A stretch of 31,642 bases of DNA from a bacterium (GTDB lineage Bacteria > Patescibacteriota > Minisyncoccia > Phycocordibacterales > VMEP01): NCBI GenBank assembly GCA_030699625.1, contig JAUYLU010000025.1, forward strand, positions 1 to 31,642, in the 5' to 3' direction. The position numbers were made by a program, and so were the translations under genes. The notes under the pieces are model-generated. The model was not told the origin of the DNA. It was given only the letters and a program-made list of their open reading frames with translations, and made no database searches. This document shows positions 4,296 through 28,393 of this stretch, one piece after another (positions within the stretch are counted from its first letter, which is position 1; every line of letters begins with the position of its first letter).

Positions 4296-4730
4296 CTAAA
4301 TCTTTCTCGGCTTCTTCGGTTGCGGCCCGTTATGCGGCACCGGGGTCATGTCTTTGATGGACGTAAGGTCGATGCCCCGCGCCGCAAATGCGCGGACGGT
4401 GGATTCGCGGCCGGAACCCGTGCCTTTCACCACCACCGCCGCTTCCTTGGCTCCGAGCGCCTGCGCTTTCTCGCCGACGAGGTCACCCACCTTCGAGGCG
4501 GCGAAAGGGGTGCCTTTCTTCGCTCCCTTGAAGCCGAGCGAGCCGCTTGAGGACCAGACGAGAACGTTTCCGGCGGTGTCGGTAAAGGCCGCCCTTGTGT
4601 TGTTATAGGTCGACTCAACGTAGAGGACGCCCGAAGTCACTTTCTTTTTCGGCGTCTTCGAGGCGCCATGCGCCTTTGCGCCCTCGGCCGCCGTTCCCTC
4701 CTCTTTTTTGGCTATGCGCTTCTTTCCCAT
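4296..4730 (-). CDS. rpsK: Small ribosomal subunit protein uS11
   Basis: A 144-residue uS11, part of the 30S platform. The lysine- and alanine-rich N-terminal extension (MGKKRIAKKEEGTAAEG) is followed by the conserved VTSGVLYVESTYNNTRAAFTDT region, then WSSSGSLGFKGAKKGTPFAA and STVRAFAARGIDLTSIKDMTPVPHNGPQPKK with the PHNG-xxPKKPRKI ending. The ATG at 4728-4730 is chosen over an in-frame start 27 nt further up because that one lies inside the inserted inverted-repeat element (4731-4848). The ATG directly abuts the element end (AACAGG-ATG), so there is no spaced ribosome-binding site. Confidence 0.96.
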   Translation of the reverse strand: MGKKRIAKKEEGTAAEGAKAHGASKTPKKKVTSGVLYVESTYNNTRAAFTDTAGNVLVWSSSGSLGFKGAKKGTPFAASKVGDLVGEKAQALGAKEAAVVVKGTGSGRESTVRAFAARGIDLTSIKDMTPVPHNGPQPKKPRKI

Positions 4731-4848
4731 CCTGTTAGAAGCAGGTCGCGGTCGCAATGACCCCCGCGGAGTTAATTTTGCTTATTTTTGATCGCCCTTT
4801 TTTCATAATCGTGATTTTTGTGTTTACGCGACCGCGGCTTCTAACAGG
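4731..4848. mobile_element. CCTGTTAGA inverted-repeat element, copy 1 (at rpsK start)
   Basis: A 118-bp element. The plus strand begins CCTGTTAGAAGC-AGGT-CGCGGTCGC and ends GCGACCGCG-GCTTCTAACAGG: 12 bp of stem, a 4-nt one-sided bulge, then 9 bp of stem, with an AT-rich interior. On the minus strand it is bracketed by ATGGGA on both sides (4849-4854 and 4725-4730). The downstream copy is the rpsK start codon plus its second codon, so this looks like a target-site duplication spanning the start codon. No ORF of its own. Non-autonomous, MITE-like; the mobilising enzyme is unknown. Confidence 0.8.
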
Positions 4849-4912
4849 TCCCATGGCAAAATCGAACAATAACCTTAATTTTCTTCTTTGTAAAGGTTCC
4901 TTGCCTTGGCGT

Positions 4913-5293
4913 TTAGGTCTTTTCTACCTTCCGGCGGCCGCTGCCCATGGTCTTTCTGACGTTGCCGCGGACCGTCCTCGAATTCGTTTTAGTGCGCTGG
5001 CCGCGGACCGGGAGCTTCTTCTGGTGCCGCACCCCGCGGTAGCACTTGATATCCTTGAGGCGCTTCACATTGCCCGCCACCTCGCGCTTGAGGTCGCCCT
5101 CGAGCTTTTCTCCCTCCACGAGCTTTCGCACCCGCTGCTCTTCTTCGGGTGAGAGATCCTTCGGGCGCTTGCCTGCATCGACGTTCGCTTCCGTGAGGAT
5201 GCGGAGCGCCTTCGGACGGCCAATGCCGTAGAACACGGTGAGTCCGATTTCGAGGCGCTTCTGTTCGGGGACGGTGATGCCGAGGATTCTCAT
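4913..5293 (-). CDS. rpsM: Small ribosomal subunit protein uS13
   Basis: A 126-residue uS13, the 30S head protein that contacts the 50S subunit and P-site tRNA. MRILGITVPEQKRLEIGLTV begins the protein. The helix-two-turn-helix region GRPKALRILTEANVD, the coiled helices around EEEQRVRKLVEGEKLEGDLKRE and the basic tail RGVRHQKKLPVRGQRTKTNS with GSGRRK follow. Length is normal. It sits between rpmJ and rpsK as in other bacteria. The ATG abuts inverted-repeat element copy 2. A good Shine-Dalgarno sequence (AGGGA) exists at the end of rpmJ, but it is spaced for the extra ATG on the far side of the element (5416-5418), not for the used start. Confidence 0.97.
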   Translation of the reverse strand: MRILGITVPEQKRLEIGLTVFYGIGRPKALRILTEANVDAGKRPKDLSPEEEQRVRKLVEGEKLEGDLKREVAGNVKRLKDIKCYRGVRHQKKLPVRGQRTKTNSRTVRGNVRKTMGSGRRKVEKT

Positions 5294-5411
5294 CCTGTTA
5301 GAGGCAGGTCACGGTCACCCGTGCCGCAGCGTGGTTTTTATTTGTTTCGACCTTTTGTTTGTTTTTCATAATGTATCTTTCGTACCACTCGTGACTGTGG
5401 CCTCTAACAGG
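5294..5411. mobile_element. CCTGTTAGA inverted-repeat element, copy 2 (at rpsM start)
   Basis: 118 bp, the same length and plan as copy 1, but with paired changes. Plus-strand ends are CCTGTTAGAGGC-AGGT-CACGGTCAC and GTGACTGTG-GCCTCTAACAGG. Relative to copy 1, A to G in the left arm is matched by T to C in the right (GAAGC/GCTTC becomes GAGGC/GCCTC), and the CGCGGTCGC arm changes to CACGGTCAC while its partner becomes GTGACTGTG. Pairing is preserved apart from one wobble or mismatch. Flanks on the minus strand are ATGAAGT (5412-5418) and ATGAGAA at the rpsM start. The upstream ATG has AGGGA 8 nt ahead of it. Confidence 0.8.
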
Positions 5412-5423
5412 ACTTCATTGTCG

Positions 5424-5537
5424 TTATCCCTGTTTCTGCTTATGGCGCGAATTCTTGCACACGACCCGCACGCGGCCGCCGCGCCGGACGACCTTGCAGA
5501 GGGGGCATATTCGTTTGACCGAGCTCCTTACCCGCAT
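5424..5537 (-). CDS. rpmJ: Large ribosomal subunit protein bL36
   Basis: A 37-residue bL36 in the canonical infA-rpmJ-rpsM position. The translation begins [20 protein letters not shown] and ends [10 protein letters not shown]. The zinc ligands are present (Cys11, Cys14, Cys27 and His32), so this is the C+ form. It is the smallest 50S protein and stabilises 23S rRNA near the base of the L7/L12 stalk. The ATG is at 5535-5537 and the TAA at 5424-5426. No clear Shine-Dalgarno sequence; a weak terminator-like hairpin precedes the start. Confidence 0.96.
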
Positions 5538-5555
5538 GATTGTTGCAAACACTTA

Positions 5556-5582
5556 AAAAAGAGGGATATGCTCCCTTCTTTG
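5556..5582 (-). terminator. Weak terminator-like hairpin between infA and rpmJ
   Basis: On the minus strand AAGGGA-GCATA-TCCCT is followed by CTTTTTT. The stem is only 5-6 bp. It could attenuate read-through from infA into the ribosomal genes, or simply be a leftover. Confidence 0.35.
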
Positions 5583-5607
5583 GTGGAACGTTCCTAATAT
5601 ACAGTAT

Positions 5608-5832
5608 TCAAAGACGCTTTACAATACGGTTGCCGGTTTTGCTCCCGTATTCATCGAGCTTTACGGAGACCTTGTCGCCGACGAGGACCCGGATACGGTG
5701 GAGGCGCATTTTGCCCGAAAGGTGGGCCATAAGCTCCTGTCCGTCGTCAAGCTTTATTTTGAAGAGCGTCGAGGGCAATGCCTCAATCACCATTCCTGTC
5801 GCGAGCGATTCTCCTCTCTCCTTTTCGTCCAT
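5608..5832 (-). CDS. infA: Translation initiation factor IF-1
   Basis: A 74-residue IF-1, an OB-fold protein that occupies the 30S A site during initiation. Diagnostic stretches are VIEALPSTLFKIKLDDGQELMAHLSGKMR, MRLHRIRVLVGDKVSVKLDEYG and the ending GNRIVKRL. Length is normal. It is the first gene after the promoter at 5964-5992 and heads the operon with rpmJ and rpsM. The ATG abuts element copy 3 (AACAGG-ATG). A second ATG on the other side of the element (5947-5949) lies only about 7 nt from the expected transcript start. Confidence 0.97.
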   Translation of the reverse strand: MDEKERGESLATGMVIEALPSTLFKIKLDDGQELMAHLSGKMRLHRIRVLVGDKVSVKLDEYGSKTGNRIVKRL

Positions 5833-5943
5833 CCTGTTAGAAGTTAAACACTAAAGAGACGCTGTTAACAATATCAGAGCCGCAAGGCGACTTCGCTCTT
5901 TTTGTTTTTTCGACCCTAAGACTGCCGGTGAACTTCTAACAGG
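5833..5943. mobile_element. CCTGTTAGA inverted-repeat element, copy 3 (at infA start)
   Basis: 111 bp with 13-bp ends, CCTGTTAGAAGTT and AACTTCTAACAGG. The interior contains a small AGAGC/GCTCT hairpin and a T-rich stretch. Minus-strand flanks are ATGGAT (5944-5949) and ATGGAC (infA start), a near-perfect duplication of the start codon and its context. The element separates the operon promoter from the infA ATG. Confidence 0.8.
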
Positions 5944-5963
5944 ATCCATATAGAGACTTTGCT

Positions 5964-5992
5964 ATCGTACCAGACGCCCTACAGAGCGTCAA
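5964..5992 (-). promoter_or_regulatory. Sigma-70-type promoter of the infA-rpsI operon
   Basis: Minus strand: -35 TTGACG (5987-5992), exactly 17 nt, then -10 TACGAT (5964-5969). The expected transcript start, near 5957, lies about 7 nt before the ATG at 5947-5949 outside element copy 3. A second, weaker TTGACC-17-TTAATT arrangement is seen further upstream (around 6063-6092). Confidence 0.75.
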
Positions 5993-6092
5993 ACCCCATG
6001 AGATAAAATCTTTTGAACGTGTGGCCAGGTTGGTGTGCTTACTGAAATCGGCGCTTGCGATAAAAATTAACTGTCGCTATCTCACGGGGTCA

Positions 6093-6165
6093 AACCGGGT
6101 AGTGAATTTTACCGCGGGCTTACGCCATGCGCCAAGGGCGCGACGGCAAAATCTACTACCTGGTT
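6093..6165. repeat. Inverted repeat between the baseplate-J-like gene and the infA promoter
   Basis: Arms at 6093-6114 and 6144-6165 match as reverse complements at 18 of 22 positions (one arm starts AACCGGGTAGTGAATTTT). They enclose GCGCC-AAG-GGCGC. No T-run follows, so it is not an obvious intrinsic terminator. The rest of the 5944-6170 gap holds the infA promoter and no gene that I can recognise. Confidence 0.6.
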
Positions 6166-6170
6166 CAAAC

Positions 6171-7487
6171 TTATTCGAGCACGGTCGTCACCTCGATGTC
6201 GTCCTTGTCATCGGGAAGCGACTGCGCCCAGAACGGCGAGAGCGAAAGCTCGGCCCGGTCGACTGCCCCGTAGCGCGAGAGTATCGACTGGAAGCTTTTC
6301 TTCGGCTTCCCCTTGAGTTCGTCGGCGAGCGCGTCCTTGTCGAGCGCCCAGACGACGGTGGCGGGGCCGGAGAGCGAGATGGTGATGGTACCGAAGCGCG
6401 GGTAGTCGATGGACTCCTTGTTTTTCACGGCGAGCGAGAGGGCGTCGAGCGTCGGGCTCTCAACGGGAGCGCCGTCAAAGCCGTCCACCGAGGTCTGGGC
6501 GATGAATTTGGCGAGGTCGCCGCGGTTCCAAAGGAGCGCGTAAAACTTTCCTTCTTTCTCGACGGTCACGTTCTTGGTTCCCTCGCCGCCGGCCACCTTG
6601 AGATCGGAGAAATCAAGAAAAACGCCGCTCTCATAGAGGATGTATCCCTCGGGCACGTTCTTTTTCGCCTCGGCGAGAAGGATTTCCCGAAGCCGTGACT
6701 CAAGCACGCGCTTCGCGTCCGCTTCATCGTCCGGTGAAATGGCGTAGGCCATGCCGATCATGCCGCCCTGCATGTTCGTTTTCGAACGGGCGTAGAACTT
6801 CGCGTAGCGGGCGGTGCCCTTGAATCCCGGCAGAGTGAAATCGGTCTTCCCGATGTTGTACTCTTCGCCCGGCTCGTCGGCGTAGACCACGGTCTCGACG
6901 CTTCCCAGAACGGTTTTTCCGTCTCCGTCTACTTTGGTGCCCGGCACCGTGATGGCGCTCGCGATGCGGTAAATCTTGCCGTCCGCGGTCTCGAAGCGGG
7001 TATTCTTGATGAGCTTCTGGGCGCTCGGCCCGTAGGCGTTGTAGACGATGATGGTGCCCGAGGCCTTCCGCTTCACTTCCTTCTGGCCGGTCGCCTGCGC
7101 TTCCATTGATTCCGTACGAGAAAGCTCAAGCGTATTGAAGTGGAGCGGCGTGGCGCCGTCCTTGCTCGCGAGGGCGGATTTCGAGACGGTGACCGTGGCG
7201 CGTTTCGGGTAGACCGTCACCTCGGCACCGACGAAGAGGAGCGAAAGCGAGAAAAGGAGGAAGACGAACGAGACGAGGGCGACGCCGTAGGCGCCGCGCC
7301 ACTTGAACCGCGGCTGGTCGGGCGGCGCATCAGGCGTTCGCGATTCCTTCGGAGGCTCTTTGGGAGGCTTCTTTCCGCTTCCGGAATTCCCGTGCGAGAC
7401 GGGAAGCCTCGCCTCCTCGCGCGGCGCGGGGGGTTCTGGCCTTTTGCGTTTTTTGTGTATGACGATGTCTTGGATCGACCGGGCCAT
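6171..7487 (-). CDS. Membrane-anchored baseplate-J-like protein
   Basis: 438 residues. Residues 1-65 are a proline- and charge-rich cytoplasmic tail. One strong membrane segment spans about 69-92 (GVALVSFVFLLFSLSLLFVG). A large outside domain follows, with ASGTIIVYNAYGPSAQKLI, NTRFETADGKIYRI, PGEEYNIGKTDFTLPGFKG and YAKFYARS. These blocks resemble the baseplate-J/gp47-like domain annotated in many Patescibacteria membrane proteins; this is family recollection, not a search. It is 15 nt downstream of the FtsA/PilM-like gene, so the two probably form one envelope-associated unit. Function unknown; a cell-surface or pilus-assembly role is inference. Confidence 0.65.
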   Translation of the reverse strand: MARSIQDIVIHKKRKRPEPPAPREEARLPVSHGNSGSGKKPPKEPPKESRTPDAPPDQPRFKWRGAYGVALVSFVFLLFSLSLLFVGAEVTVYPKRATVTVSKSALASKDGATPLHFNTLELSRTESMEAQATGQKEVKRKASGTIIVYNAYGPSAQKLIKNTRFETADGKIYRIASAITVPGTKVDGDGKTVLGSVETVVYADEPGEEYNIGKTDFTLPGFKGTARYAKFYARSKTNMQGGMIGMAYAISPDDEADAKRVLESRLREILLAEAKKNVPEGYILYESGVFLDFSDLKVAGGEGTKNVTVEKEGKFYALLWNRGDLAKFIAQTSVDGFDGAPVESPTLDALSLAVKNKESIDYPRFGTITISLSGPATVVWALDKDALADELKGKPKKSFQSILSRYGAVDRAELSLSPFWAQSLPDDKDDIEVTTVLE

Positions 7488-7502
7488 TGCGGGCTTTTAT
7501 TG

Positions 7503-8678
7503 TTATGCGTGAAGGCGGGGGGCTGCCGCGAAAATGGATTCAATGCCTAAAAATTCGTCGCGTACCCCTATTGTAGCACCGAACGCGACATCGTTCCCGA
7601 ATGCCGAGGCGCCGATGACGGTGACGTCGAACTTGTCCGCCGAGAGGGTGTACTGGCCGTACTCTTCCTGTTCCACGGCCGTGGCGAACCATTTCGCCAC
7701 GTCGCTCGCAGCGAGGAGGAACACGCGGTGCGGAAGGAGCAGGGAGGAGCGGACCATATCGAGCGCTTTGTGGAACGACTCGAGCCATTCCATCTGGACG
7801 GGGCCGAGGACGAGAGCGAGCGAAGCCGCGGCCTCGGGGTCGAGCTTTCCTTCGGCGAGCAGCCGGAGCGTCGAGCGCGTCCCTTCGACGTCCTTCCGGA
7901 GGGCGGCGCAGGCGCGGCGTAGGAGAAAGTTCCGGCCGAGCGGGAACGAAGCCGAGGCGGCAAGTGTCTGATCCTTCATGAACGAGACGTCGGTCACCTC
8001 CCCGCCCACGTCGATGAGCATGGCGTCCTTCGCCTCGGGGAAGAATGTCCGCGCCACGTGGAAGAACGGGAGCAGGAACGAATGGAAGGAGGGCGCCACG
8101 TGCGGCAGGAATTTTTTCAAATGCTCGCGGACGCGAGCGGTCATCTCTTCGCCGGAAACGCCGAAGAAAAACGAAACCTCGGCGTTCTCGGTGCGCTTGC
8201 CGAACGGGTCGAGAAGCCGGTAGCCGTTCAGCTTCACGTCGAGCACTTCTTCCTCGATGAAGTCGATGTGTTCCCGGACATTCTTGTACTTTTCCTCGAA
8301 GAATGCCTTCTTCTCCTTCTTGACGAGGTTTTCGAGGAGCTTTCGCTCGAAAACGAAGCCGTGTTCCTTGTGGAGCTTCACCGTCCGGACCTGCGAGGCG
8401 TACCACATGGAGGAGAGGAAGCAGTGGGCTTCGCGGGGACGCCCCGGCGCCGCCTTGAGCGCCTTCTCCACGGCAATGTCGAAGGAACGCCAGAGAAGCG
8501 TCATGTACCGCTCGAAATCGAAATGTTCCTGGAATGGAAGGGGCGAGCGCGCGGAGGAGAGCACGAGCGGCGCCCTCTTCCCGTTCTCGGGGAGCGAGAC
8601 CACTGCGGCGCCGACCGAAGAGGTGCCGACGTCGACGATGAGCGCGAGATTGTGGCGTGAGGAGGAGAAGAGCGCCAT
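7503..8678 (-). CDS. FtsA/PilM-like actin-fold ATPase
   Basis: 391 residues with two actin-fold phosphate loops: LALIVDVGTSSVGAAVVSL near the N-terminus and AMLIDVGGEVTDVSFM at about 225-240, followed by FPLGRNFLLRR. The region between (EVSFFFGVSGEEMTARVREH, FLPHVAPSFHSFLLPFFHVA) fits the SHS2/1C-type insert of FtsA or PilM. Such proteins polymerise beneath the membrane and recruit membrane partners. Its neighbour downstream is a single-pass membrane protein, which fits a cytoplasmic-ATPase plus membrane-partner pair. It is divergent; a true FtsA or PilM assignment is not justified. A paired 7-nt array fills part of the gap upstream. Confidence 0.65.
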   Translation of the reverse strand: MALFSSSRHNLALIVDVGTSSVGAAVVSLPENGKRAPLVLSSARSPLPFQEHFDFERYMTLLWRSFDIAVEKALKAAPGRPREAHCFLSSMWYASQVRTVKLHKEHGFVFERKLLENLVKKEKKAFFEEKYKNVREHIDFIEEEVLDVKLNGYRLLDPFGKRTENAEVSFFFGVSGEEMTARVREHLKKFLPHVAPSFHSFLLPFFHVARTFFPEAKDAMLIDVGGEVTDVSFMKDQTLAASASFPLGRNFLLRRACAALRKDVEGTRSTLRLLAEGKLDPEAAASLALVLGPVQMEWLESFHKALDMVRSSLLLPHRVFLLAASDVAKWFATAVEQEEYGQYTLSADKFDVTVIGASAFGNDVAFGATIGVRDEFLGIESIFAAAPRLHA

Positions 8679-8682
8679 GGAT

Positions 8683-8783
8683 TAGTCTATAGTCTTTAGT
8701 CTATAGTTTTTAGCCTTTAATTCAAAACCACGTTGTTTGGATTTCACTGAAAACTAAAAACTGTAAACTATCAACTATCCAGT
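8683..8783. repeat. Degenerate 7-nt tandem array, inverted pair (word TAGTTTT)
   Basis: Left arm in 7-nt steps: TAGTCTA, TAGTCTT, TAGTCTA, TAGTTTT, TAGCCTT (8683-8717). Right arm (8749-8783): AAAACTA, AAAACTG, TAAACTA, TCAACTA, TCCAGTA. The arms are complementary. It lies between the kinase-like gene and the FtsA-like gene. Confidence 0.85.
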
Positions 8784-8808
8784 ATATTCATCCTAGACTC
8801 CCTTCTCG

Positions 8809-9492
8809 CTAAGCCCTGACTCTTCGCGCCTTGTCCAACTTGTCGCTATCAATGGTAGTCCTCTCCCAATCTGTCGGGGTTATTGACCGTAACACCTTAT
8901 TCTCTATATCCAAATCGAAAACCATATCCTTCACTTTCCAAGTTCGATGCAGTCCGATACTTTCGTATTTTTGCCGTAAATTTTCCATCATTATCTCCGC
9001 TTCCGTTGTAAGACGCTCGACATCTTCTTTGGTATATCCCTTTTCTTTTATGAAAAGAGCATCCTTGTCAGTCCAGCGCAAACCCCTTATCTTTTCCATG
9101 ACGATAAGATGAGTTCCGTCTTTTTCGGCTTTAGCTATCGGCCGCGCGCCCGGTAAGTTGAACTCTTGCGCTATGCGCATTACCCGATATTCATAAAAAG
9201 GGTCGTTTGATTTTTCGATTTGTGATTTGCTTAAATTTACTTTTTTACCGACAGCGAACAGTTCTTCTCCCGCATCGTTCTTCCATACGGGGAAGTCCTT
9301 GACTGCAGTGGGGTCTTCCTCGATTTCTCCTGAATCCTTATATGTTATTTTTCCAGATTTGATATTAGATCCGTGTTTTTCAAAATAATCTATAGGATTT
9401 TCCTTGAAATCTTTTGGCACGAAACTCTCGTACTCTTTTTCTACTTCTATTTTTGACTTCTCTTGAGAAAAATTTCCTGATTCTAAACTCAT
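8809..9492 (-). CDS. Unknown protein with degenerate protein-kinase-like features
   Basis: 227 residues, not recognised with certainty. Residues 75-200 can be laid on a minimal protein-kinase fold. ELFAVGKKV could be the strand with the ATP-site Lys. EYRVMRIAQEFNLPGARPI resembles helix C and strand 4. HLIVMEKIRGLRW resembles the hinge. GLHRTWKVKDMVFDLD stands where HxDxxxxN would be, and TDWERT where DFG would be. The catalytic Asp of the HRD motif appears to be missing, which suggests a pseudokinase or an unrelated fold. The gene is visibly more AT-rich than its neighbours, which may mean acquisition from elsewhere. It ends upstream of the array at 8683-8783 and follows alaS by 3 nt, so it shares the alaS transcript. 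Confidence 0.45.
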   Translation of the reverse strand: MSLESGNFSQEKSKIEVEKEYESFVPKDFKENPIDYFEKHGSNIKSGKITYKDSGEIEEDPTAVKDFPVWKNDAGEELFAVGKKVNLSKSQIEKSNDPFYEYRVMRIAQEFNLPGARPIAKAEKDGTHLIVMEKIRGLRWTDKDALFIKEKGYTKEDVERLTTEAEIMMENLRQKYESIGLHRTWKVKDMVFDLDIENKVLRSITPTDWERTTIDSDKLDKARRVRA

Positions 9493-9495
9493 GGA

Positions 9496-11781: not shown

Positions 11782-11803
11782 GAAGCTATGGCGTTATGAC
11801 GGA

Positions 11804-11813: not shown

Positions 11814-11877
11814 CCTGTTAGAAGTAGAGAAACTGCGTTTCTCGTCCGGCTTCGGACGAAGCCGGACTCCCAACAGG
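11814..11877. mobile_element. CCTGTTAGA inverted-repeat element, copy 4 (mnmA/mgtC, compact)
   Basis: 64 bp. One end is CCTGTTAGAAGT, the other ACTCCCAACAGG (10 of 12 paired). Inside are two perfect hairpins, GAGAAAC/GTTTCTC and GTCCGGCTTC/GAAGCCGGAC. This copy sits at the mnmA stop codon. TGA-T precedes it on the minus strand and TGAT follows it, a duplication of the stop codon bases. It may have lost the AT-rich interior of the longer copies. Confidence 0.65.
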
Positions 11878-11878: not shown

Positions 11879-13099
11879 TCAGGCGATGACGCCCCCTCCC
11901 AGGCATTTATCCCCCGCATAGAGGACGAGCGACTGCCCGCGCGAGACGGTGTAGTCGGGCGTCTTGAGGCGAAGCGAGATGGCGCGCGGGGCGACCGCGC
12001 GCACTTCGCACGGCACGGGCGTCTGGCGGTAGCGGAACCGGGCACGGCACGCGTCGCCCTTTTTCGGCCGCTCGGAGATGAAATTCGCCTGCCCGGCGCT
12101 CACCAGAGCGCCTGCCCGGGCCCTCGTTTTCGGAGCGGCCGAGACGGTAACGGTGTTCCTCTTGATGTCTTTCCTGATGACGTACCGCGGCTGGTCGCTC
12201 GGGGATTTTTGGGCGACCGCAAAGCCGTGCCGCTCGCCGAGCGTATAAAGGAGGGCGCCGTCGTGCGTGCCGATGACGCTCCCCTTCTCGTCGAGAAGTT
12301 TCCCCTTTTTCGGCCCGAGGAGATTCGAGAGGAATTCCTTCATGTCCACCTTTCCCACGAAGCAGAGGCCCTGGCTGTCCTTCTTTTCGGCGGTCGGAAG
12401 GCCGAAGCGCCGCGCGAGCGCGCGCACTTCGCGCTTCTTCTCGTAGTTCCCCACGGGAAAGAGAATATGTCGTAATTGGCGCTGAGTAAGGGTCCACAAA
12501 AAATAGCTTTGATCTTTTTCCTTGTCCCTTGAAGTATGCAGTTCGTAGTGAGTTATTTGTTGCTTGTTATTTGTTATTTGTTGTTTTATGGCGTAGTGCC
12601 CCGTCGCCACGTAATCGGCGCCGCGGCGGAGCGCCCAAGAAAGGAACGCTCCGAACTTTATCTCCTTGTTGCACATGGCGTCGGGATTCGGGGTGTTCCC
12701 TTTCTTGTACTCGGCGAGCATGTAATCGACCACCTCCTTCTTGTATTCCTTCGAAAGGTCGTGGGTCGTGAACGGGTTGTCGAGATGGGCCGCCACCCGC
12801 ATGGCGTCCTCGCGGTCCTCGCGGCTCGTGCAGGCGAGGAACGGCGGCTGCCAGACTTTGATGAAAACGCCGGTGACGTCGTATCCCGCCTCCTTCAAAA
12901 GAGCGGCAGACACGGCACTGTCGACGCCTCCCGAGAGGCCTACAAATACTTTTTTACGCGCAAGGCCGACCTGCCCCGTCTGCCTGTGCGTGTACCTGTC
13001 TGCGTGCGAGCATGCACAGGCAGACGCACGCAGACAGGTAGGAAGCTCCTGCTTTCCTACTGGGGCGAACACCCTCTCTTTAAAAGCGCTTTTCTTCAT
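11879..13099 (-). CDS. mnmA: tRNA 2-thiouridylase MnmA, with repeat-derived insertions
   Basis: 406 residues. It thiolates U34 of tRNA Lys, Glu and Gln using ATP and a persulfide. The PP-loop KKVFVGLSGGVDSAV starts at about residue 50. Both catalytic cysteines are present (NPDAMCNKEIKFGAF and DSQGLCFVGKVDM), with DYVATGHYA and KEKDQSYFLWTL. There are two oddities. Residues 1-48 are an extra N-terminus, part of which is encoded by nested palindromes (12980-13040). Residues about 170-186 (NNKQQITHYEL) come from a 7-nt repeat array. The distant ATG at 13097-13099 is accepted because an extended -10 box, TGGTAGAGT, lies 9 nt upstream; no ATG exists closer to the PP-loop. Confidence 0.92.
   Translation of the reverse strand: MKKSAFKERVFAPVGKQELPTCLRASACACSHADRYTHRQTGQVGLARKKVFVGLSGGVDSAVSAALLKEAGYDVTGVFIKVWQPPFLACTSREDREDAMRVAAHLDNPFTTHDLSKEYKKEVVDYMLAEYKKGNTPNPDAMCNKEIKFGAFLSWALRRGADYVATGHYAIKQQITNNKQQITHYELHTSRDKEKDQSYFLWTLTQRQLRHILFPVGNYEKKREVRALARRFGLPTAEKKDSQGLCFVGKVDMKEFLSNLLGPKKGKLLDEKGSVIGTHDGALLYTLGERHGFAVAQKSPSDQPRYVIRKDIKRNTVTVSAAPKTRARAGALVSAGQANFISERPKKGDACRARFRYRQTPVPCEVRAVAPRAISLRLKTPDYTVSRGQSLVLYAGDKCLGGGVIA
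12542..12590. repeat. 7-nt array inside mnmA
   Basis: In-frame array with steps TTCGTAG, TGAGTTA, TTTGTTG, CTTGTTA, TTTGTTA, TTTGTTG, TTTTATG. It encodes an Asn/Gln/Lys/Ile/Thr-rich loop between the ATGHYA and KDQSYFL motifs of MnmA. The word resembles the rpoA-rplQ array. Confidence 0.75.
12980..13040. repeat. Interleaved palindromes within the mnmA 5' coding region
   Basis: Two inverted repeats in A-B-A'-B' order. A is CTGCCTGTGC (12980-12989), paired with 13014-13023. B is TACCTGTCTGCGTGCG (12993-13008), a perfect 16-bp match to 13025-13040. The loops are too short for both to form together. The region encodes an extra Cys/Ala/His-rich stretch of MnmA. Confidence 0.8.
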
Positions 13100-14941: not shown

Positions 14942-16138
14942 TTAAATGGGAAGGTTGGTCGGCGGCTCCGATTTTTTCGACTCCACCCGCGAGAAGGAAG
15001 GAGTGGAGGCTACCTGGCCCGGGAAATGATAGATGGTGGCGAGCTCTTCCGAAGAGAGCACCATGGGCATCCTTGAGTGCGGCGGGTAAAAATACCCGCG
15101 CCGCCGATAAAGATCAAACATCTTCATCTTTTTGTTTTCCAGGCGGATGTTGCCGATATCTTCCCATGGGTAATTGATCGCGGTGAATCGCGTGAGCTTG
15201 AACCCGTTCAGATTGTTCGAATTGTATTGCTTCAGCATATTGAGCATAGCGGGGATGTTCGCGCCACGGAACGCCTCCTTTTCGGCGATGTAGATGGCGC
15301 GGATGCCGACATCGAACGGCAGCTTGTCGACGTTCCGCTCAAGCGCTTTCATCATCTCGCGCTCGCCGGGCGTAAGCAACTGGTCGCTCCATTTCTCGAC
15401 GGCGGCCGCCTTCATTTTTTCTTCCTTTATTTTCTTGATCTCGTCCTGCGCTTCCTTCTTCCATCCCTTCATTTCCTTCCCTGAAGCACGCACCGCTATC
15501 TGGAGCCACAGCTGTTCGCCAGCCGTCATCGAGCCCATAAGCTCTATAGTGGTGGCGATAGGGTCTATCTTCTCCTCTTCCTTCACCGTCTCATTGAGGC
15601 CGTAGTCGACGTAGGTCTTAATGGGATACGGGTCGGGGGCAGTGAGCGCGAACTCGGTGCCGAACATCGACCATCTGCCATCTTTCGCGTAGGAGAGCTT
15701 TTCCGTATAGTCAGGCACTTCGCCTATCTCCGCTTCGGGATAGTGGGCGTAAATATATGACTCGATGAAGTTCCTGAACTGTTCGGGGGTCCGTATGAGG
15801 AAGTGCACGTCCCCTTCGATAGAGACTATCTCGAGCGAAAAGTACATGCGCACCTTCCCGACCCAATACCGGTCGAGCCAGCTCGCGGTGCCGCCCGTCT
15901 GATGGAGCGTGTTCAGCACGAGCTCCATGGCAAGCGGCGAGCGGCGGATCTCCTTGGGCAGGCGCACCTCGATGAGCTGCCACTTTACCGTCCGCAGGAA
16001 TTCGGCATTGATATAGCGCAACCACACCCGCCAGGCCACGAAGCCGAGGAGCACGGGCGCCACGAACTTGAGCCCTTCGTTCGCGAGCGCATAGACGTCG
16101 CGAAGGGAGTTTATGAAAAGGTCGAGAAGAAACTCCAT
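14942..16138 (-). CDS. Conserved membrane-anchored protein of unknown function
   Basis: 398 residues. An N-terminal membrane segment is at about 18-38 (EGLKFVAPVLLGFVAW), followed by a large soluble region containing VKWQLIEVRLPKEIRRSPLAMEL, SLEIVSIEGDVHFLIRTPE and FIESYIYAHYPEAEI. A helical Lys/Glu-rich stretch and a C-terminal RRRGYFYPPHSRMPMVLS motif complete it. The middle resembles domains found next to VirB4/HerA-like ATPases in Patescibacteria; this is recollection and low confidence. The ATG at 16136-16138 abuts element copy 5. An in-frame start 39 nt upstream lies inside the element and is rejected. Confidence 0.6.
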   Translation of the reverse strand: MEFLLDLFINSLRDVYALANEGLKFVAPVLLGFVAWRVWLRYINAEFLRTVKWQLIEVRLPKEIRRSPLAMELVLNTLHQTGGTASWLDRYWVGKVRMYFSLEIVSIEGDVHFLIRTPEQFRNFIESYIYAHYPEAEIGEVPDYTEKLSYAKDGRWSMFGTEFALTAPDPYPIKTYVDYGLNETVKEEEKIDPIATTIELMGSMTAGEQLWLQIAVRASGKEMKGWKKEAQDEIKKIKEEKMKAAAVEKWSDQLLTPGEREMMKALERNVDKLPFDVGIRAIYIAEKEAFRGANIPAMLNMLKQYNSNNLNGFKLTRFTAINYPWEDIGNIRLENKKMKMFDLYRRRGYFYPPHSRMPMVLSSEELATIYHFPGQVASTPSFSRVESKKSEPPTNLPI

Positions 16139-16357
16139 CCTGTTAGAGATAGGGAACGCTTGTCCTATGCGGAGCAAACGTTCTCTTATAATTAACTTCT
16201 AATTTTTCCCTCATTTTAATTGCTTTACGCGTTCCCGTCCTGTTAGAAGCAGGTCGCGGTCGCTTTGCCACCGCTCACGCTCTTTATTGTTTTACGGCTA
16301 TTTTGCATAGTTTAGTTTTTTACCGCGACCGCGGCTTCTAACAGGATCTCTAACAGG
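16139..16357. mobile_element. CCTGTTAGA inverted-repeat element, copy 5, interrupted by copy 6
   Basis: Outer ends CCTGTTAGAGAT (16139-16150) and ATCTCTAACAGG (16346-16357), with a second stem GGGAACGC (16152-16159) / GCGTTCCC (16229-16236). Without copy 6 it would be about 110 bp, and its interior resembles copy 7. Minus-strand flanks are ATGGT (16358-16362) and ATGGA at the start of the downstream gene. The ATG outside it follows a TAAAAT -10 box by 12 nt. Confidence 0.78.
16239..16345. mobile_element. CCTGTTAGA inverted-repeat element, copy 6, nested in copy 5
   Basis: 107 bp. The first 25 bases and last 21 bases are identical to copy 1 (same AGGT bulge), while the AT-rich interior differs. 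It sits between the GCGTTCCC inner arm and the outer arm of copy 5, at the place where copy 7 has an unpaired 33-nt stretch. No clear direct repeat flanks it. Confidence 0.78.
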
Positions 16358-21591: not shown

Positions 21592-21597
21592 ATAGAA

Positions 21598-22297: not shown

Positions 22298-22334
22298 AGT
22301 TCTCTCCTTGTGAACTGCTCTCTTCATCGTAGCA

Positions 22335-22358: not shown

Positions 22359-22374
22359 GGTATCATAACGCCTC

Positions 22375-22398
22375 GCGTTAGCTACGGGACAAGCGTCG
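22375..22398. repeat. Left inverted repeat flanking ychF
   Basis: 24 bp starting GCGTTAGCTACGGGACAAG. It matches the reverse complement of 23508-23531 at 21 of 24 positions and abuts the ychF stop codon. Confidence 0.85.
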
Positions 22399-22399
22399 C

Positions 22400-23497: not shown

Positions 23498-23507
23498 GAG
23501 AAAAGGC

Positions 23508-23531
23508 CGACGCCTGCCCCGTAGCTAGCGC
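23508..23531. repeat. Right inverted repeat flanking ychF
   Basis: 24 bp, partner of 22375-22398. In the upstream leader it also forms part of a GCCCCG/CGGGGC hairpin (around 23515-23535). Confidence 0.85.
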
Positions 23532-23550
23532 GGGGCACTATGGTACTGGG

Positions 23551-23586
23551 GTTCGGGAGACCCACGATGCCAATAGACAATGACAT
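23551..23586 (-). pseudogene. Remnant of a second ychF 5' end
   Basis: Encodes MSLSIGIVGLPN, identical to the first 12 residues of the intact ychF, but with different codons at nine of them (including TCT versus AGC for Ser). The frame then continues through unrelated sequence to a stop overlapping the real start. An AGG lies about 10 nt ahead of this ATG, so it may retain the original initiation region. Confidence 0.8.
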
Positions 23587-23598
23587 AATCGATACGCC

Positions 23599-23628
23599 TA
23601 TTCTCTTATTCGCACGAATAAGAGAATA
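23599..23628. repeat. 14-bp palindrome upstream of ychF
   Basis: TATTCTCTTATTCG-CA-CGAATAAGAGAATA. Near perfect and between the quinone-oxidoreductase stop and the ychF remnant; no T-run. Could be an operator or an RNA hairpin. Confidence 0.6.
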
Positions 23629-23639
23629 AGGAAATTACT

Positions 23640-24218
23640 TTATTTCGCCCTCGTCCCCATCCTATAGAGCTTCTTCCTCCAGCCCTCTTTCCACTCGGGC
23701 GCGGCGTTCTTCAAGGGCCCCACTTTCGTCACCTTCGCCTTGATGCCGCCGAAACCGAGGATGGCGCTCCGTATCTCGTTCGAGTTGTCGCCGAAAAGGA
23801 TGCGCGAGAGCATGGGCGGCGAGTCCATGCAGATGACGACCCGGCCGGTGCGCCCCTTGAGGAGCTTCTCCCACCCGGGGCGGTCCTTGTTGAAACGGAA
23901 GGCGAACCCCGGGAGATAGAAACGGTCGAAGAGACCCTTCAGCATCGCGGGCATCGTCCCCCACCAGTTCGGGTAGAAAATGGCGATGTGGTCGGCCCAG
24001 CGGAAATCCTCCTGGAGCGAGCAAAGGTCCGGTTCGAGTTCCTGGATGACCTTATAGCCGTGGTGAAGGATGGGATCGAAGGAAAGGTCGCCGAGATTCT
24101 TTCGGCGCACCTCGAAGCCCGCCGCGCGGGCGCCTTCTTCGTACGCGTCGGCAAAGCCCCCTGAAGTCGTCTCCTTGTCCGTGTGGCCGAGGAGCACCAG
24201 TACGTTCTTTTTGTCCAT
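23640..24218 (-). CDS. Flavodoxin-fold NAD(P)H oxidoreductase (quinone reductase family)
   Basis: 192 residues. It matches the NQO1/MdaB/KefF-type NAD(P)H dehydrogenase (quinone) family. NVLVLLGHTDKETTSGG is the start of the FMN site, WADHIAIFYPNWWGTMPAMLKGLFDRFYLPGFAF is the highly conserved core, and GRTGRVVICMDSPP follows. Two-electron reduction of quinones or nitro compounds protects against oxidative stress; the actual substrate is unknown. It follows the 24226-24450 gene by 7 nt and reads toward ychF. Confidence 0.88.
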   Translation of the reverse strand: MDKKNVLVLLGHTDKETTSGGFADAYEEGARAAGFEVRRKNLGDLSFDPILHHGYKVIQELEPDLCSLQEDFRWADHIAIFYPNWWGTMPAMLKGLFDRFYLPGFAFRFNKDRPGWEKLLKGRTGRVVICMDSPPMLSRILFGDNSNEIRSAILGFGGIKAKVTKVGPLKNAAPEWKEGWRKKLYRMGTRAK

Positions 24219-24225
24219 AAGGCAG

Positions 24226-24450
24226 TTACGTTAAAAGCTTTTGAAATTCGTCGCGGTGCGCTTCCATGACCTCGCGGGCGGCATCCGTCTCACTATACCC
24301 CTCGGCCATCTTTTCCTTTATCTCGCCTGCCACTTTCGCGAAAAATTCTGGATGCGCAAGCATCGCCTTCATGAGCTTTTCGCGTTCCGATTCAGGCAGC
24401 GCCTTGAGCTTCGATTCCAAGAGCTTCTTCAGAAAGAATTCCTTGAACAT
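24226..24450 (-). CDS. Small helical hypothetical protein
   Basis: 74 residues, rich in Lys and Glu, all-helical by eye, with MFKEFFLKKLLESKLKALPE, REKLMKAMLAHPEFFAKVAGE and a C-terminal AAREVMEAHRDEFQKLL. Not recognised. An extended -10 (TGC-TAGAAT) ends exactly 7 nt before the ATG, indicating a leaderless mRNA. It and the downstream oxidoreductase form one transcript. Confidence 0.6.
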   Translation of the reverse strand: MFKEFFLKKLLESKLKALPESEREKLMKAMLAHPEFFAKVAGEIKEKMAEGYSETDAAREVMEAHRDEFQKLLT

Positions 24451-24457
24451 TTCCGTG

Positions 24458-24466
24458 ATTCTAGCA
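24458..24466 (-). promoter_or_regulatory. Extended -10 promoter, leaderless start for the 24226-24450 gene
   Basis: TGC-TAGAAT on the minus strand, with 7 nt (CACGGAA) between it and the ATG. Confidence 0.65.
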
Positions 24467-24481
24467 GATTTTACGGCGTTG

Positions 24482-26215
24482 TCACACCGTTTCCGCGGTG
24501 TAGATGCGCACGGGCTCGTTCCTTCCCTTTACCCGCACGTCGCCGATCGCCTTCCATCGGACGTCTGCTGCGATCTTCTCCTTGGTCGGCTCGCCGACGA
24601 TGAGACGGGTGCCGTGCTCTTTGTTGAGCCCTTCGAGCCGCGAGGCGACGTTCACGGTATCGCCCATGGCGGTGTAGTCGAAGCGCTGGTCGGAACCGAT
24701 GTTCCCCACCACCGCGGGGCCGGTGTAAATCCCGATGCCGATGTCTATCTCGACGCCTTTTTCTTTTTTAAGCAGAACATTGAGCTCTTTCAGGCGTTCG
24801 AGCATCCCGAATGCCGCCCGCAAGGCGTTCTCCGCCTGCCGATCGTCCGGGAGCGGCGCGCCCCAGAAGGCCATGACGGCGTCGCCGATGTATTTGTCGA
24901 GCACGCCCCCGTGCTTCTGCACCTCGCCCGTCATCAGGGTGAAGTAGCGGTTCAGGATGGCGACGAGCTCATGGGCCGAGACGCGCTCGGAGAGCGTAGT
25001 GAAGCCCCTGATGTCGGAAAAGAGGACCGTGATCTCGCGCTCTTCGCCGCCAAGCACCACCCGCGAGGGGTTCGAGAGTATCTCGTCGAGCACCTGCGGC
25101 GAAACGTATTTGGAAAAGGCGCCCTTGAGCGCGCGCTGCTCGCGCTCGCCGACGAAGAAGCGGAAGGCGAAATTGAGCGCCATGGAACCGAGCGCCGCCG
25201 CGTTCAGATGGAAGAGGTTGACCGTCGTTCCGCCTTCGTGGAGGAGCAGAGCGGCAAAGTCGAGGACGAGCAGGAGGGCGAACGAGGCGAGGAGCGCGCG
25301 AAGCGGCCCCCTCATGCGGGAAAAAAGGATCCCCGGTGCAAGCGCGGCAAAAAGAAGGAGGGCGTACGAGCCCGCGGGCGAAAGCGGCTCCTCGCGATAG
25401 CCCATGAGAAGCATGTTCGCGACGTTCGCCTGGATCTCAACGCCGGCCATCTCGGTCCCCTTCGAGAGCGGCGTCGGCTTCTCGTCATGGAGATCGGGAG
25501 AAGTCGCCCCGATAAGCACGATCTTTCCGCGGAGCGTTTCCGAGAGATCTTCCTCGAGGAGGCGGTAGAACGGGATTTGCCGGATGGCGCCGGGCGGCGC
25601 GGCATAGACGATGGAGACGATGCCCGTGTCTGCAGGAGCCGCGCCGCCCGCTTCGGCGAGAAGCGCAGCCATCGCCTTTCGCTGTCCTCCCGGCGTTCCT
25701 ATGGAAAGCGGCACGCGGCGCACCACGCCGTCCTTGTCCATGATGAGGTTCACATGCCCCTTCGCAATACGCGCGTTTTCGAAAAACTGCGGGAGCGGCT
25801 CGGTAAGCCGCTCGGCCAGCGCCTGGCCGTCATCGAAGCGAAGCGGCCCTTCGACCGGGAAAACGAGCGGGTAGGTCGTTTCCAAGAGCGCGCTCGCGAG
25901 AGCCGCGTCGTCCCCGTTCCCGAGCCGCGAGCGCTCGGCGAGCACCACGTCGAAACCGACGGCCAGGGGCTTTGCCCGTTCGAGTGCGAGAAAAGCGGCC
26001 GCAAAGTATTCTCTCGGCCACGGCCATTGGCCGAGGCGGGAAAGCGATTCGTCGTCGATGCCGACGACGACAATGCGGCTGTCCACCGGCTTCGGCGCGA
26101 CCATAAGGTCCTCAAGGAAACGCTCGGTGCCGAAAAAAAGCCCGGCTCCGTACGAGAAGGCGGCGGCTCCCGCTACGACGAGGGAGATGAGCACATGCGA
26201 GGCCGGATATTTCAT
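24482..26215 (-). CDS. CHASE2-domain class III adenylate cyclase
   Basis: 577 residues. An N-terminal anchor (about 8-26) precedes a CHASE2 extracytoplasmic sensor (about 38-290: VGIDDESLSRLGQWPWPREYF, KPLAVGFDVV, GVVRRVPLSI, KIVLIGATSPDLHD). Three membrane helices follow (about 310-390), then the cyclase domain (about 410-577). Metal-binding Asp is in VLFSDIRGFTTLSE and KYIGDAVMAFWGAP. Specificity and catalytic residues are in DYTAMGDTVNVASRLEG. It makes cAMP in response to an outside signal. It lies 5 nt after the FecR-domain gene, a pairing seen in other bacteria. The longer in-frame start overlaps that gene and is rejected. Confidence 0.93.
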   Translation of the reverse strand: MKYPASHVLISLVVAGAAAFSYGAGLFFGTERFLEDLMVAPKPVDSRIVVVGIDDESLSRLGQWPWPREYFAAAFLALERAKPLAVGFDVVLAERSRLGNGDDAALASALLETTYPLVFPVEGPLRFDDGQALAERLTEPLPQFFENARIAKGHVNLIMDKDGVVRRVPLSIGTPGGQRKAMAALLAEAGGAAPADTGIVSIVYAAPPGAIRQIPFYRLLEEDLSETLRGKIVLIGATSPDLHDEKPTPLSKGTEMAGVEIQANVANMLLMGYREEPLSPAGSYALLLFAALAPGILFSRMRGPLRALLASFALLLVLDFAALLLHEGGTTVNLFHLNAAALGSMALNFAFRFFVGEREQRALKGAFSKYVSPQVLDEILSNPSRVVLGGEEREITVLFSDIRGFTTLSERVSAHELVAILNRYFTLMTGEVQKHGGVLDKYIGDAVMAFWGAPLPDDRQAENALRAAFGMLERLKELNVLLKKEKGVEIDIGIGIYTGPAVVGNIGSDQRFDYTAMGDTVNVASRLEGLNKEHGTRLIVGEPTKEKIAADVRWKAIGDVRVKGRNEPVRIYTAETV

Positions 26216-26220
26216 GGGAA

Positions 26221-27600
26221 TCAGCCCCGGAGCTCGGTCTCGGGAATGAACGGCGTCACTATGAACTCGATAGGCTTCGCGGTGAAGAGCGTTCCTTCGT
26301 ATTGCAATACCGCCTCGACGCTCCCCTTGATGTCGCCGAGCTCTGAATCCTCGTCGCGGAGTTTGGAGAGAAAGGCGCCGGGCGAGGCGAATACGCCCAC
26401 ATTCCCGGTCACCTTCCATGATGCCTTGTCGGTCACGTCGAGCCGGCTTCCGTCGGCAAAAACGAGGATTGCGCGAAACGAGACCTTGTCCCCGTCCGTG
26501 AAGGCGCGCACCGAAGTTTTTGTCTCGATGACGAGCGAGCTCGGCGCGGCGACGGGTTTGGTTGCCGTTGTCCCGCCGGAAGTTTTCGTCCGTACCGTGC
26601 TGGTCTCCATGGGCGTTTCTTCTTTCACTTCGGTGGTTTTTGCGGTTTCTTCGCTCACTGGTCCCACGTGTATGCCGTCCTCGAGGAGGCGCTCCTTTAC
26701 CCGCTCGCGGAGCTCCTCGATGCTTTCCGCCTTGAGCTTTTCTATTATTTCCCGTTCGGAGTTCCGCTCTTTGCGGAGCGCCTCGGCTTTCTCCTTGCGC
26801 GCCTTCACCTCCTCGCGGAGCTCTTTGCGGGTCCGCTCCTCGCTTCTCGCTTCTTCTTTGATGGCCTCAACTGCATCGTCGAGCTCGTCGTCTTGTGCGC
26901 GGTTTTCCTTGATAAAGCGATCGTTTAGGAATTCCTTCGGCACTTCCTTGAGCACGAGCGCCGTTTCCGCGGTCGTCTGCTTCGTCGCGATGGCCCGTGC
27001 CGTCTCGTCGTCGATCTCGACGAACATATTCTCGGTAACGAGCTTCCCCTTGCCTTCGACCGGCGCCTTTGAGACGGGGTCGAGCGCCCTTATCTCGATC
27101 GTCCGTTCCGCGCCGACTATCTTCGTCGCGCCGTTCCTGTATTCGGTGAGGAATGCGGTGCCGCGGACGGTCGCCACCGCATTCGAGGTCTTTACCTCCC
27201 AGCTCGAGCGCGGCGTGGCAAGGCCGATTACTTTTGACCATACGCGCCCGGCCACGAGCGTGGCGCGGAGCGTGAGCGTCTCGTCGGCCTCGAGGCGCGC
27301 GCGTTCGAGCACGAGCGTGGAGTTCGAATCGAGGCGAAGCGCCGATCCGTCGGGAAGATGGACGGTCGCCGTGCCCAAGACGTCCGAACGGAGCGTGGTG
27401 CCCTCGTCGAGCTCGTCTCCCGTGCGAAGCTCTTTGAGCGTAGAGCCGTCCGCTTCCACCCTGAAGACTTTGGCGGTGGTCACTTCGACCCAGGGCTTTC
27501 CCGGAGCGGCGACAAGCGCCTTGCCGCCCGTCCCCGCCCAGAAATAAAAGCCGAGGGCGGCAAGCCCTGCAATCACAGCAAGCATTCCTATCGTTTTCAT
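26221..27600 (-). CDS. FecR-domain protein with coiled coil and Ig-like C-terminus
   Basis: 459 residues. Signal or anchor helix at 4-22 (IGMLAVIAGLAALGFYFW). A FecR domain lies at about 35-165, with GDELDEGTTLRSDVLGTATV, LPDGSALRLDSNSTLVLE and TSNAVATVRGTAF. A long charged coiled coil (about 225-310) leads to a Ser/Thr linker and a C-terminal Ig-like (BIG2-type) domain (FTDGDKVSFRAILVFADG and DKASWKVTGNV). Probably a periplasmic or cell-surface ligand sensor working with the cyclase. The ATG abuts element copy 7. Before the insertion its start probably overlapped the DsbA stop as ATGA. Confidence 0.85.
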   Translation of the reverse strand: MKTIGMLAVIAGLAALGFYFWAGTGGKALVAAPGKPWVEVTTAKVFRVEADGSTLKELRTGDELDEGTTLRSDVLGTATVHLPDGSALRLDSNSTLVLERARLEADETLTLRATLVAGRVWSKVIGLATPRSSWEVKTSNAVATVRGTAFLTEYRNGATKIVGAERTIEIRALDPVSKAPVEGKGKLVTENMFVEIDDETARAIATKQTTAETALVLKEVPKEFLNDRFIKENRAQDDELDDAVEAIKEEARSEERTRKELREEVKARKEKAEALRKERNSEREIIEKLKAESIEELRERVKERLLEDGIHVGPVSEETAKTTEVKEETPMETSTVRTKTSGGTTATKPVAAPSSLVIETKTSVRAFTDGDKVSFRAILVFADGSRLDVTDKASWKVTGNVGVFASPGAFLSKLRDEDSELGDIKGSVEAVLQYEGTLFTAKPIEFIVTPFIPETELRG

Positions 27601-27746
27601 CCTGTTAGAGATAGGGAACGCTCTTCCTCTTGAAGAAGAAAGTTTCCTTATGATTATCCTTAAATTTTTCTGCCATGTTCAGCGCCCTATCGCGTTCCCG
27701 TAAGTCTTTAATACTGTACCATTATCAAAAACTTATCTCTAACAGG
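27601..27746. mobile_element. CCTGTTAGA inverted-repeat element, copy 7 (between dsbA-like and fecR-like genes)
   Basis: 146 bp with 13-bp ends, CCTGTTAGAGATA and TATCTCTAACAGG. There is an inner stem GGGAACGC (27614-27621) / GCGTTCCC (27692-27699), and a 33-nt unpaired arm at 27701-27733. It interrupts an ATGA overlap. On the minus strand ATGAGT precedes it (its TGA is the DsbA stop) and ATGAAA follows (the FecR start). Confidence 0.8.
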
Positions 27747-27748
27747 AC

Positions 27749-28393
27749 TCATGGCGTCACTGGGGGAAGGCCGCGCTCCATGGCCCGCTCGATTTCTCTC
27801 TTGAACTCATCATAGTTCCCGGGGTTTTTTATCTTTGTTCCGTTCACGAAAAACGTGGGCGTGGCGTTCACTTTGAGCCGGAGTCCGCCCGCGTAATCGC
27901 GTTCTATCTTGTCTTCCGTCTCTTTTGAATCAAGATCGGCCTCAAAGCGCGCAGTGTCGAGCCCGAGCTCTTTCGCATAGGCAGTCGCGAGCGTCCTCAT
28001 GGTCGCGCTTGTCGCCCACTCCTCCTGCTTTTCAAAGAGAAGATCGTGCATCTCCCAAAACTTACCCTGCTTCCCTGCCGCTTCCGCGGCTTTGGCGGCG
28101 AGCACCGCGTTCTGATGTATCTGGGTGAGCGGAAAATGGCGGTACGCGAAACGGAGCGTGTCATTGAAATCGCCGCGGATCTCCGCGACGAGCGGCTCAT
28201 ACGCGGCGCAGGCCGGGCATTGGAAATCGCTGTACTCGATGAGCTCGACCTTTGGGTCGAGGGCGCCATCGGTCCAATCTGCAGCTTCGATCGAGGCAAT
28301 CGGCGCGCCGCCTTTGCCGGAAAGCCAAAGCACTGCGCCGAAAAAAAGCACGATGAGCGCAACCGAGACGATGAGCGTAGTACTGGTTTTCAT
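27749..28393 (-). CDS. DsbA-like thiol-disulfide oxidoreductase, membrane-anchored
   Basis: 214 residues. An N-terminal anchor or signal (about 5-25, TLIVSVALIVLFFGAVLWL) precedes a thioredoxin fold with active site FQCPACAAYEPL and the cis-Pro loop NATPTFFVNGTKI. It belongs to the DsbA/BdbD/Thioredoxin_4 group and introduces disulfides in exported proteins. It forms a unit with the FecR/cyclase genes downstream and is 32 nt from the Gmad2 gene upstream. Its stop codon TGA is at 27749-27751, and the ATGA overlap there is the site of element copy 7. Confidence 0.92.
   Translation of the reverse strand: MKTSTTLIVSVALIVLFFGAVLWLSGKGGAPIASIEAADWTDGALDPKVELIEYSDFQCPACAAYEPLVAEIRGDFNDTLRFAYRHFPLTQIHQNAVLAAKAAEAAGKQGKFWEMHDLLFEKQEEWATSATMRTLATAYAKELGLDTARFEADLDSKETEDKIERDYAGGLRLKVNATPTFFVNGTKIKNPGNYDEFKREIERAMERGLPPVTP

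Follow-up and report, generated by a model that had tools for sequence, protein, structure and literature searches.

Short inverted-repeat elements at start codons in a Patescibacteria genome and the GIY-YIG nuclease gene of longer copies

Relation to described mobile repeats

The window (the whole stretch of DNA analyzed, 31,642 nucleotides of contig JAUYLU010000025.1, GenBank assembly GCA_030699625.1) contains seven copies of a small element that is bounded by the inverted repeat CCYGTTAGA...TCTAACRGG and folds into a hairpin or three-way junction. Comparison with relatives that lack the element clearly indicates insertion with duplication of the start codon, and the copies lie in a single orientation. 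On balance the window copies are best regarded as short members, mostly without an open reading frame (ORF), of a GIY-YIG-encoding mobile element of Patescibacteria that its nuclease probably mobilizes at start codons.

Repetitive extragenic palindromic (REP) elements are hairpins mobilized in trans by RAYT (Y1) transposases, in one orientation, and no target duplication is expected. Their length is 20–40 bp (PMC3733652; this and the other PMC articles are cited for the available part of their text). As in the REP/RAYT systems, the genome of the window has a Y1 gene, but this gene is not flanked by the present hairpins. Bacterial miniature inverted-repeat transposable elements (MITEs) are likewise short, bounded by inverted repeats, hairpin-forming and associated with a target duplication (PMC10969869). 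Unlike MITEs, the present elements are addressed to start codons, keep a single orientation and, when longer, carry a GIY-YIG gene; the terms “start codon” and “GIY-YIG” do not occur in the available text of that review. The Rickettsia palindromic elements described there are palindromes of about 150 bp whose insertion leaves the gene readable, and in this they resemble two in-frame copies discussed below (L117 and L284). However, the Rickettsia elements sit inside ORFs, whereas the copies in the genome of the window are at a start codon (29 of 30) or a stop codon (one).

The rRNA genes of the candidate phyla radiation (CPR) contain GIY-YIG insertions that fit neither intron group, as well as short insertions without an ORF, mostly below 200 bp, and the spread of the GIY-YIG genes was judged to be outside a homing context (PMC11270868). 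These insertions are described in rRNA genes, and “inverted repeat”, “palindrom” and “start codon” are absent from the available text; they are probably relatives of the present elements. The intervening sequence of Coxiella 23S rRNA (PMC4990558) is likewise a selfish insert that lies in a transcript and has just one small ORF, but is located in rRNA and has an ORF of the S23 type. A search of the open-access literature found no description of an element with the habit of duplicating start codons.

Insertion and duplication at start codons

The window forms contig 41 of a genome (G000) of 571,296 bases in 73 contigs, 88% complete. The RpoA protein of G000 shares about 76% identity with RpoA from records named Candidatus Parcubacteria and Lloydbacteria, which places the host among the Patescibacteria. 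The exact end sequence TCTAACAGG is found in G000 30 times forward and 31 times reverse (61 ends), and the reversed-pattern control 0 and 1 times. Within the window 13 of the 14 named ends are exactly CCTGTTAGA, the inexact end being at positions 11869–11877 (CCCAACAGG). When up to one mismatch is allowed the window displays 15 end matches compared with a shuffle mean of 3.45, and 15 was attained in none of 100 shuffles. Thirty elements of 64–283 bp were resolved in G000 from the sequence around the ends. Four ends are unpaired: L045, L050 and L051 are close to contig edges and L052 is 978 bases from an edge; three of the four (L050, L051 and L052) likewise touch ATG. At L052 (G000:C30:978) the right end abuts ATG and the left end was not found upstream, which suggests a truncated or a longer element.

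Twenty-nine of the 30 elements are directly followed, in the orientation of the gene, by an ATG or GTG that opens an ORF of at least 74 codons; GTG is the start at L035 and L047. The sole exception is the element at 11814–11877, which is at the stop codon of mnmA. In an approximate gene model of the window, RTGR starts number 26, and the noncoding sites number 41 (ATGR) and 132 (TGR). With a 40% expected share of starts, 28 of 30 elements at starts (28 was used, one below the count found) gives p = 1.2e-9, to be read as an order of magnitude only since the gene model mis-starts or loses genes, e.g. 26221–27600 is missing from it. When 74 noncoding RTGR sites are used in place of the 41 ATGR sites, the expected share of starts falls further. 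Placement at start codons, proposed for window copies in a preliminary description, is thus genome-wide and not random relative to start codons. Start codons are either targeted, or residence there is favored, or both.

In 27 of the 30 elements the far end is preceded, at a distance of 1–4 bases, by a second ATG or GTG, compared with 10% of random window positions; this second start is missing in L034, L038 and the element at 11814–11877. The base after the duplicated start agrees between the far copy and the host gene in 25 of 26 cases, and the summed duplicated bases are 125, compared with a mean of 88.9 and a maximum of 107 in 1000 shuffles. Thus the far copy derives from that same host gene. 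In 29 of 30 elements of G000 and in 48 of 50 elements of a mixed set, the far copy closes with a base that complements the one at which the start codon begins, and this makes the inverted repeat one pair longer. The mixed set includes two nested inner copies, two elements off starts (L204 and L205) and L233, which abuts a 26-codon ATG frame. L233 (1490–1596, G046:C21) has family ends, and its interior is tRNA-like by appearance and adjoins tRNA-like sequence. All 28 classifiable copies have the same orientation relative to the gene (18/0, 6/0 and 4/0 in three motif classes). Some element-bearing genes display, by eye, a -10-like box that precedes the far ATG by 6–8 nt, an arrangement known from leaderless transcripts.

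Orthologous sites that lack the element are present in related genomes. G091, with 37 ends of a related type (CCYGTTAGARRT), was compared with G008 of the same genus, which has one end. Nineteen copies were found in the G091 loci, and for 16 of them the N-terminal part of the host protein served as query against 634,268 bases of G008 (L202, L204 and L205 were not queried); L200, L201 and L210 gave no match and the match of L208 stops short of the start. All 12 G008 sites with a usable start have no element in the 45 nt upstream and have a single start. The one pair aligned on both sides is L203 and L237, with similar flanks: the occupied site reads ...CATACAATC-6 nt-ATGCAAT(element)ATGCAACCCC and the other ...CATACAATC-6 nt-ATGCAAG. 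ATGCAA is duplicated; the aligner places the gap a few bases off the junction and the duplication was read from the letters. The left end of this element copy has three extra bases (CCCGTCGTTAGA). The far ATG thus occupies the old start position, and the near ATG is the start that insertion regenerated. In G001, which is in the same family as G000, rpsK, rpsM and infA have single starts without an element (for infA this is a reading of L271).

These single-start sites, which the preliminary description had expected, together with the 27 far copies, support its proposal that the target duplication copies the start codon and leaves the gene intact. Its view of the elements as MITE-like with a TG[A/G] target stands in part: the start-codon duplication agrees with it, but the ATGCAA site, the GTG starts and the longer copies with a GIY-YIG nuclease do not.

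Ten other genomes provide 117 end contexts, of which 79 are start-codon-like (74 ATG/CAT and 5 GTG/CAC). Contexts such as CGGG/ATGAAT/CCCG, also present at L066, suggest stacking, in which one copy entered the start codon that another copy had regenerated.

The elements of the window and the adjoining genes are as follows.

4296–4730, minus strand: rpsK (ribosomal protein S11), whose start codon abuts the element
4731–4848, minus strand: 118-bp element upstream of rpsK; flanks ATGGGA/element/ATGGGA (minus-strand reading)
4849–4854, minus strand: far-side start-codon duplicate ATGGGA of the rpsK element
4913–5293, minus strand: rpsM (ribosomal protein S13), host gene
5294–5411, minus strand: 118-bp element upstream of rpsM; flanks ATGAAGT/element/ATGAGAA
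5412–5418, minus strand: far-side start-codon copy ATGAAGT of the rpsM element
5608–5832, minus strand: infA (translation initiation factor IF-1), host gene
5833–5943, minus strand: 111-bp element upstream of infA; flanks ATGGAT/element/ATGGAC
5944–5949, minus strand: far-side start-codon copy ATGGAT of the infA element
11814–11877, no strand assigned: 64-bp element at the TGA stop of mnmA, with one degenerate end; TGAT/element/ATGAT
11879–13099: mnmA, whose TGA stop codon is touched by the 64-bp element
14942–16138: gene without a family match, downstream of the 219-bp composite
16139–16357, minus strand: 219-bp composite element; flanks ATGGT/element/ATGGAG
16239–16345, no strand assigned: 107-bp element nested in 16139–16357, in the place of hairpin P2
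16358–16362, minus strand: far-side start-codon copy ATGGT of the composite
26221–27600, minus strand: FecR-domain host gene, 459 aa
27601–27746, minus strand: 146-bp element upstream of the FecR-domain gene; flanks ATGAGT/element/ATGAAA
27747–27752, minus strand: far-side start-codon copy ATGAGT of the FecR-gene element

The seven pairs of element coordinates in the preliminary description are all correct, as are the essential genes it named (rpsK, rpsM and infA) and the copy at a stop codon, which is that of mnmA. Its length range of 64–146 bp is corrected to 64–219 bp, since 16139–16357 is a 219-bp element with a nested 107-bp element. A composite similar to it is found at L044 (G000:C6). 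No tRNA genes were found in the window. A 1093-codon plus-strand open frame at 24266–27547 lies opposite minus-strand genes and is probably a shadow ORF.

Short and long copies have common ends and the common blocks TTACGGRAACGC and CGTTCCCTATCTCTAAC. Alignment of 11 copies gives three helices with 29 pairs, and compensatory changes are found in 10 of the 29. The outer helix has 12 pairs in these copies, with one pair broken in one copy. A common extra hairpin module (GGCAAGCGAGGAC... or similar) is located near the 3′ end of larger copies without an ORF, i.e. L032, L037, L040, L041 and L042.

The GIY-YIG gene of longer copies

The 283-bp element L034 (G000:C59:7136–7418) encodes P0001, an 85-residue complete GIY-YIG domain. 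P0001 matches PF01541 with an E-value of 1e-15 and 58.2 bits, above the gathering score of 22.6, and scores 22.2 bits against the group I intron endonuclease TIGR01453, below the cut-off of 56.05. The elements had been described as carrying no ORF. This holds for the window copies, in which no gene was found, but not for L034.

In L066 (G012) a 95-aa frame, MNPVRDHSFM...FLSLTG, runs through the whole element and its stop codon is the TGA in the ATGA of the next gene. The nuclease has 2659 homologues at E ≤1e-10. Among the best 120 of these together with P0001, 78 begin with MNPVR and 101 end with FLSLTG, counts that are biased as the query itself starts with MNPVR. ATGA is found directly after the right end in eight of the 13 nuclease loci shown, out of 21 examined (L300–L304, L308, L311 and L316). 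Several full-length copies display a nuclease frame that spans the element, can enter from the far-side start (the original start of the host gene) and ends in the TGA of the host's regenerated ATGA.

The nearest solved sequence relative of the element protein is a UPF0213 GIY-YIG protein (PDB 1zg2, 1e-8), a comparison that gives no element context. A phage source of the nuclease was rejected, as no match was found in 50,697 phage records.

Related copies are also found at other kinds of sites. L103 (G010:C2, ~6971–7183) has a GIY-YIG gene in an apparent 16S rRNA gene, with a different inverted repeat (CCACACCTC/GAGGTGTGG). It is an insertion of the kind reported in CPR rRNA genes (PMC11270868), and probably represents this type of element at a different address. 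In Omnitrophota, L117 (3001–3252 and flanks) is a nuclease element in frame in a pilin-like gene (GFT/.../LTGFTLIEI), with the duplication TTTA and no stop codon separating the two halves. L284 (G082:C14) is a copy without an ORF, in frame inside an apparent zwf gene, and resembles a Rickettsia palindromic element.

The mobilizing enzyme and other explanations

The 118 genomes of the order contain 359 end-pattern matches, compared with 56 for the reversed control. Bare presence of the pattern (56 of 118 genomes) could not be used as occupancy, as the reversed control matches in 45 genomes. At least three ends are present in 30 of the 118 genomes, and in two for the reversed control. Nuclease copies bring their own ends and inflate the association, and for this reason two ends were subtracted per genome for the nuclease copy before co-occurrence was counted. 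After subtraction, 11 of the 17 genomes that have a close nuclease (E up to 1.3e-28) still reach three or more ends, compared with 15 of the 101 genomes that lack one (p = 4e-5). Within Y1-positive genomes the counts are 10 of 14 and 13 of 60 (p = 7e-4).

In the proposed process the nuclease would cut at the start codon and mobilize both full-length copies and those without an ORF. The comparisons above show that insertion takes place where the start codon begins, with a fixed orientation, and leaves a target-derived start copy on the far side. Start codons may be the favored address in that an element inserted there would use the translation signals of its host, with the host gene restarting, possibly by reinitiation at ATGA. 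With hairpins that lack an ORF, the host gene may be translated by bridging of the stem or after stem cleavage.

Several observations weigh against this proposal. The nuclease's presumed role as mobilizer is argued from association, and the cut that defines a close nuclease was set at G000's own copy after the list was viewed. By that cut, half of the element-rich genomes (15 of the 30 that reach three ends) lack a close nuclease. Rich genomes without one include G091 (37 ends; best match 4e-22) and G026 (14 ends; 2e-16), and in G075, with 25 ends, a nuclease match is absent at 1e-14. G000 has one close nuclease copy (its other copies were not individually searched for genes), and the far side of L034 reads TTAAT, not ATG. 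In the ten other genomes 38 of the 117 ends are outside every start-codon class. A Y1 gene is also present in G000, as a 226-aa open frame (PF01797, 2.0e-8) at L329 (G000:C64:6191–6409). Element-rich genomes make up 27 of 74 with Y1 and 3 of 44 without (p = 3e-4); where there is no close nuclease the figures are 13 of 60 and 2 of 41 (p = 0.02).

Ends in G048, G098, G109 and G026 are flanked by GTTGAC/GTCAAC, GCTTGC or ACTTGT instead of ATG. These are either subfamilies with other targets or composite elements.

The main alternative is a Y1 (HUH, RAYT/IS200-like) transposase that acts in trans to move the hairpins, with the GIY-YIG gene a passenger or helper. Y1 enzymes act on hairpins in single-stranded DNA and insert in one orientation, and the fixed orientation and conserved hairpins fit this. 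PF01797 is found in 74 of the 118 genomes; among these are 27 of the 30 element-rich genomes, with the three named above (G091, G075 and G026). However, target duplications are not expected from Y1 enzymes, and those seen here are about 3–6 nt. The L329 locus has no exact family end and a single one-mismatch match, where the chance mean is 0.98; it is beside a different, 22-nt inverted repeat whose halves are 188 nt apart. In addition, the association with the close nuclease holds among Y1-positive genomes. Mobilization by Y1 thus appears rather unlikely; we infer that the GIY-YIG protein is the likelier mobilizer and that Y1 is its main and serious rival.

Ordinary MITEs would be moved by a DDE-type transposase cutting around TG[A/G], with non-start insertions lost by selection and the duplicated ATG keeping the gene intact. 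Inverted repeats with a short duplication are the classic anatomy of such elements. However, noncoding ATGR sites exceed RTGR starts in the window (and TGR sites do so further), yet 29 of 30 copies are at starts, and orientation is fixed. The transposase families PF01609 and PF00665 have no match in G000, a genome 88% complete in which other DDE families were not searched. This explanation is considered unlikely.

An element acting at the RNA level, i.e. a mobile intron or a bypass element that is removed or skipped in mRNA between the two start copies, is improbable. The hairpin does juxtapose the start copies, and GIY-YIG insertions have been reported in CPR rRNA genes (PMC11270868). However, the full protein is obtained from the near start codon by itself, as it is in element-free relatives, and a frame opened at the far ATG reaches a stop within the element in all five window copies tested. 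P0001 is under the group I intron endonuclease cut-off, and Rfam gave no match, including to group I or group II intron cores, in the window and four nuclease-copy loci (L034, L066, L108 and L115). Leader-peptide coupling in the window copies was also rejected: the five far-ATG frames end after 4 to 39 codons, at varied places within the element.

Host regulatory leader hairpins, duplicated but immobile, are very improbable, for although the fold is conserved with compensatory changes and is placed before infA, rpsM and rpsK, orthologous sites in the same-genus pair and in the same-family genome are element-free and the duplication is target-specific. A fixed regulatory RNA was rejected in view of the element-free sites and the absence of an Rfam match.

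Beyond mobilization by the GIY-YIG nuclease, there is a tentative possibility that insertion is guided by the translation-start apparatus and not by DNA sequence alone, with enzyme and hairpin acting together on start codons. The action might be at the mRNA or ribosome, or on the exposed DNA of translated genes. Such guidance would account for several features: insertion in the sense orientation only, a junction placed exactly where the start codon begins, regenerated starts that seem to have received a further copy, and the favoring of start codons over other TGR sites. If true, the elements would amount to mobile DNA that recognizes gene starts.

If mobilization by the nuclease is right, the family represents a minimal mobile element of less than 300 bp, with one GIY-YIG gene in a hairpin, resident on start codons. 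The element would borrow the start and stop signals of its host and return the start codon, even in infA, rpsM and rpsK. This would explain the MNPVR... leaders on predicted proteins of Patescibacteria and illustrate how a genome of such small size can accommodate dozens of insertions. It would also offer a system for testing insertion targeted to gene starts.

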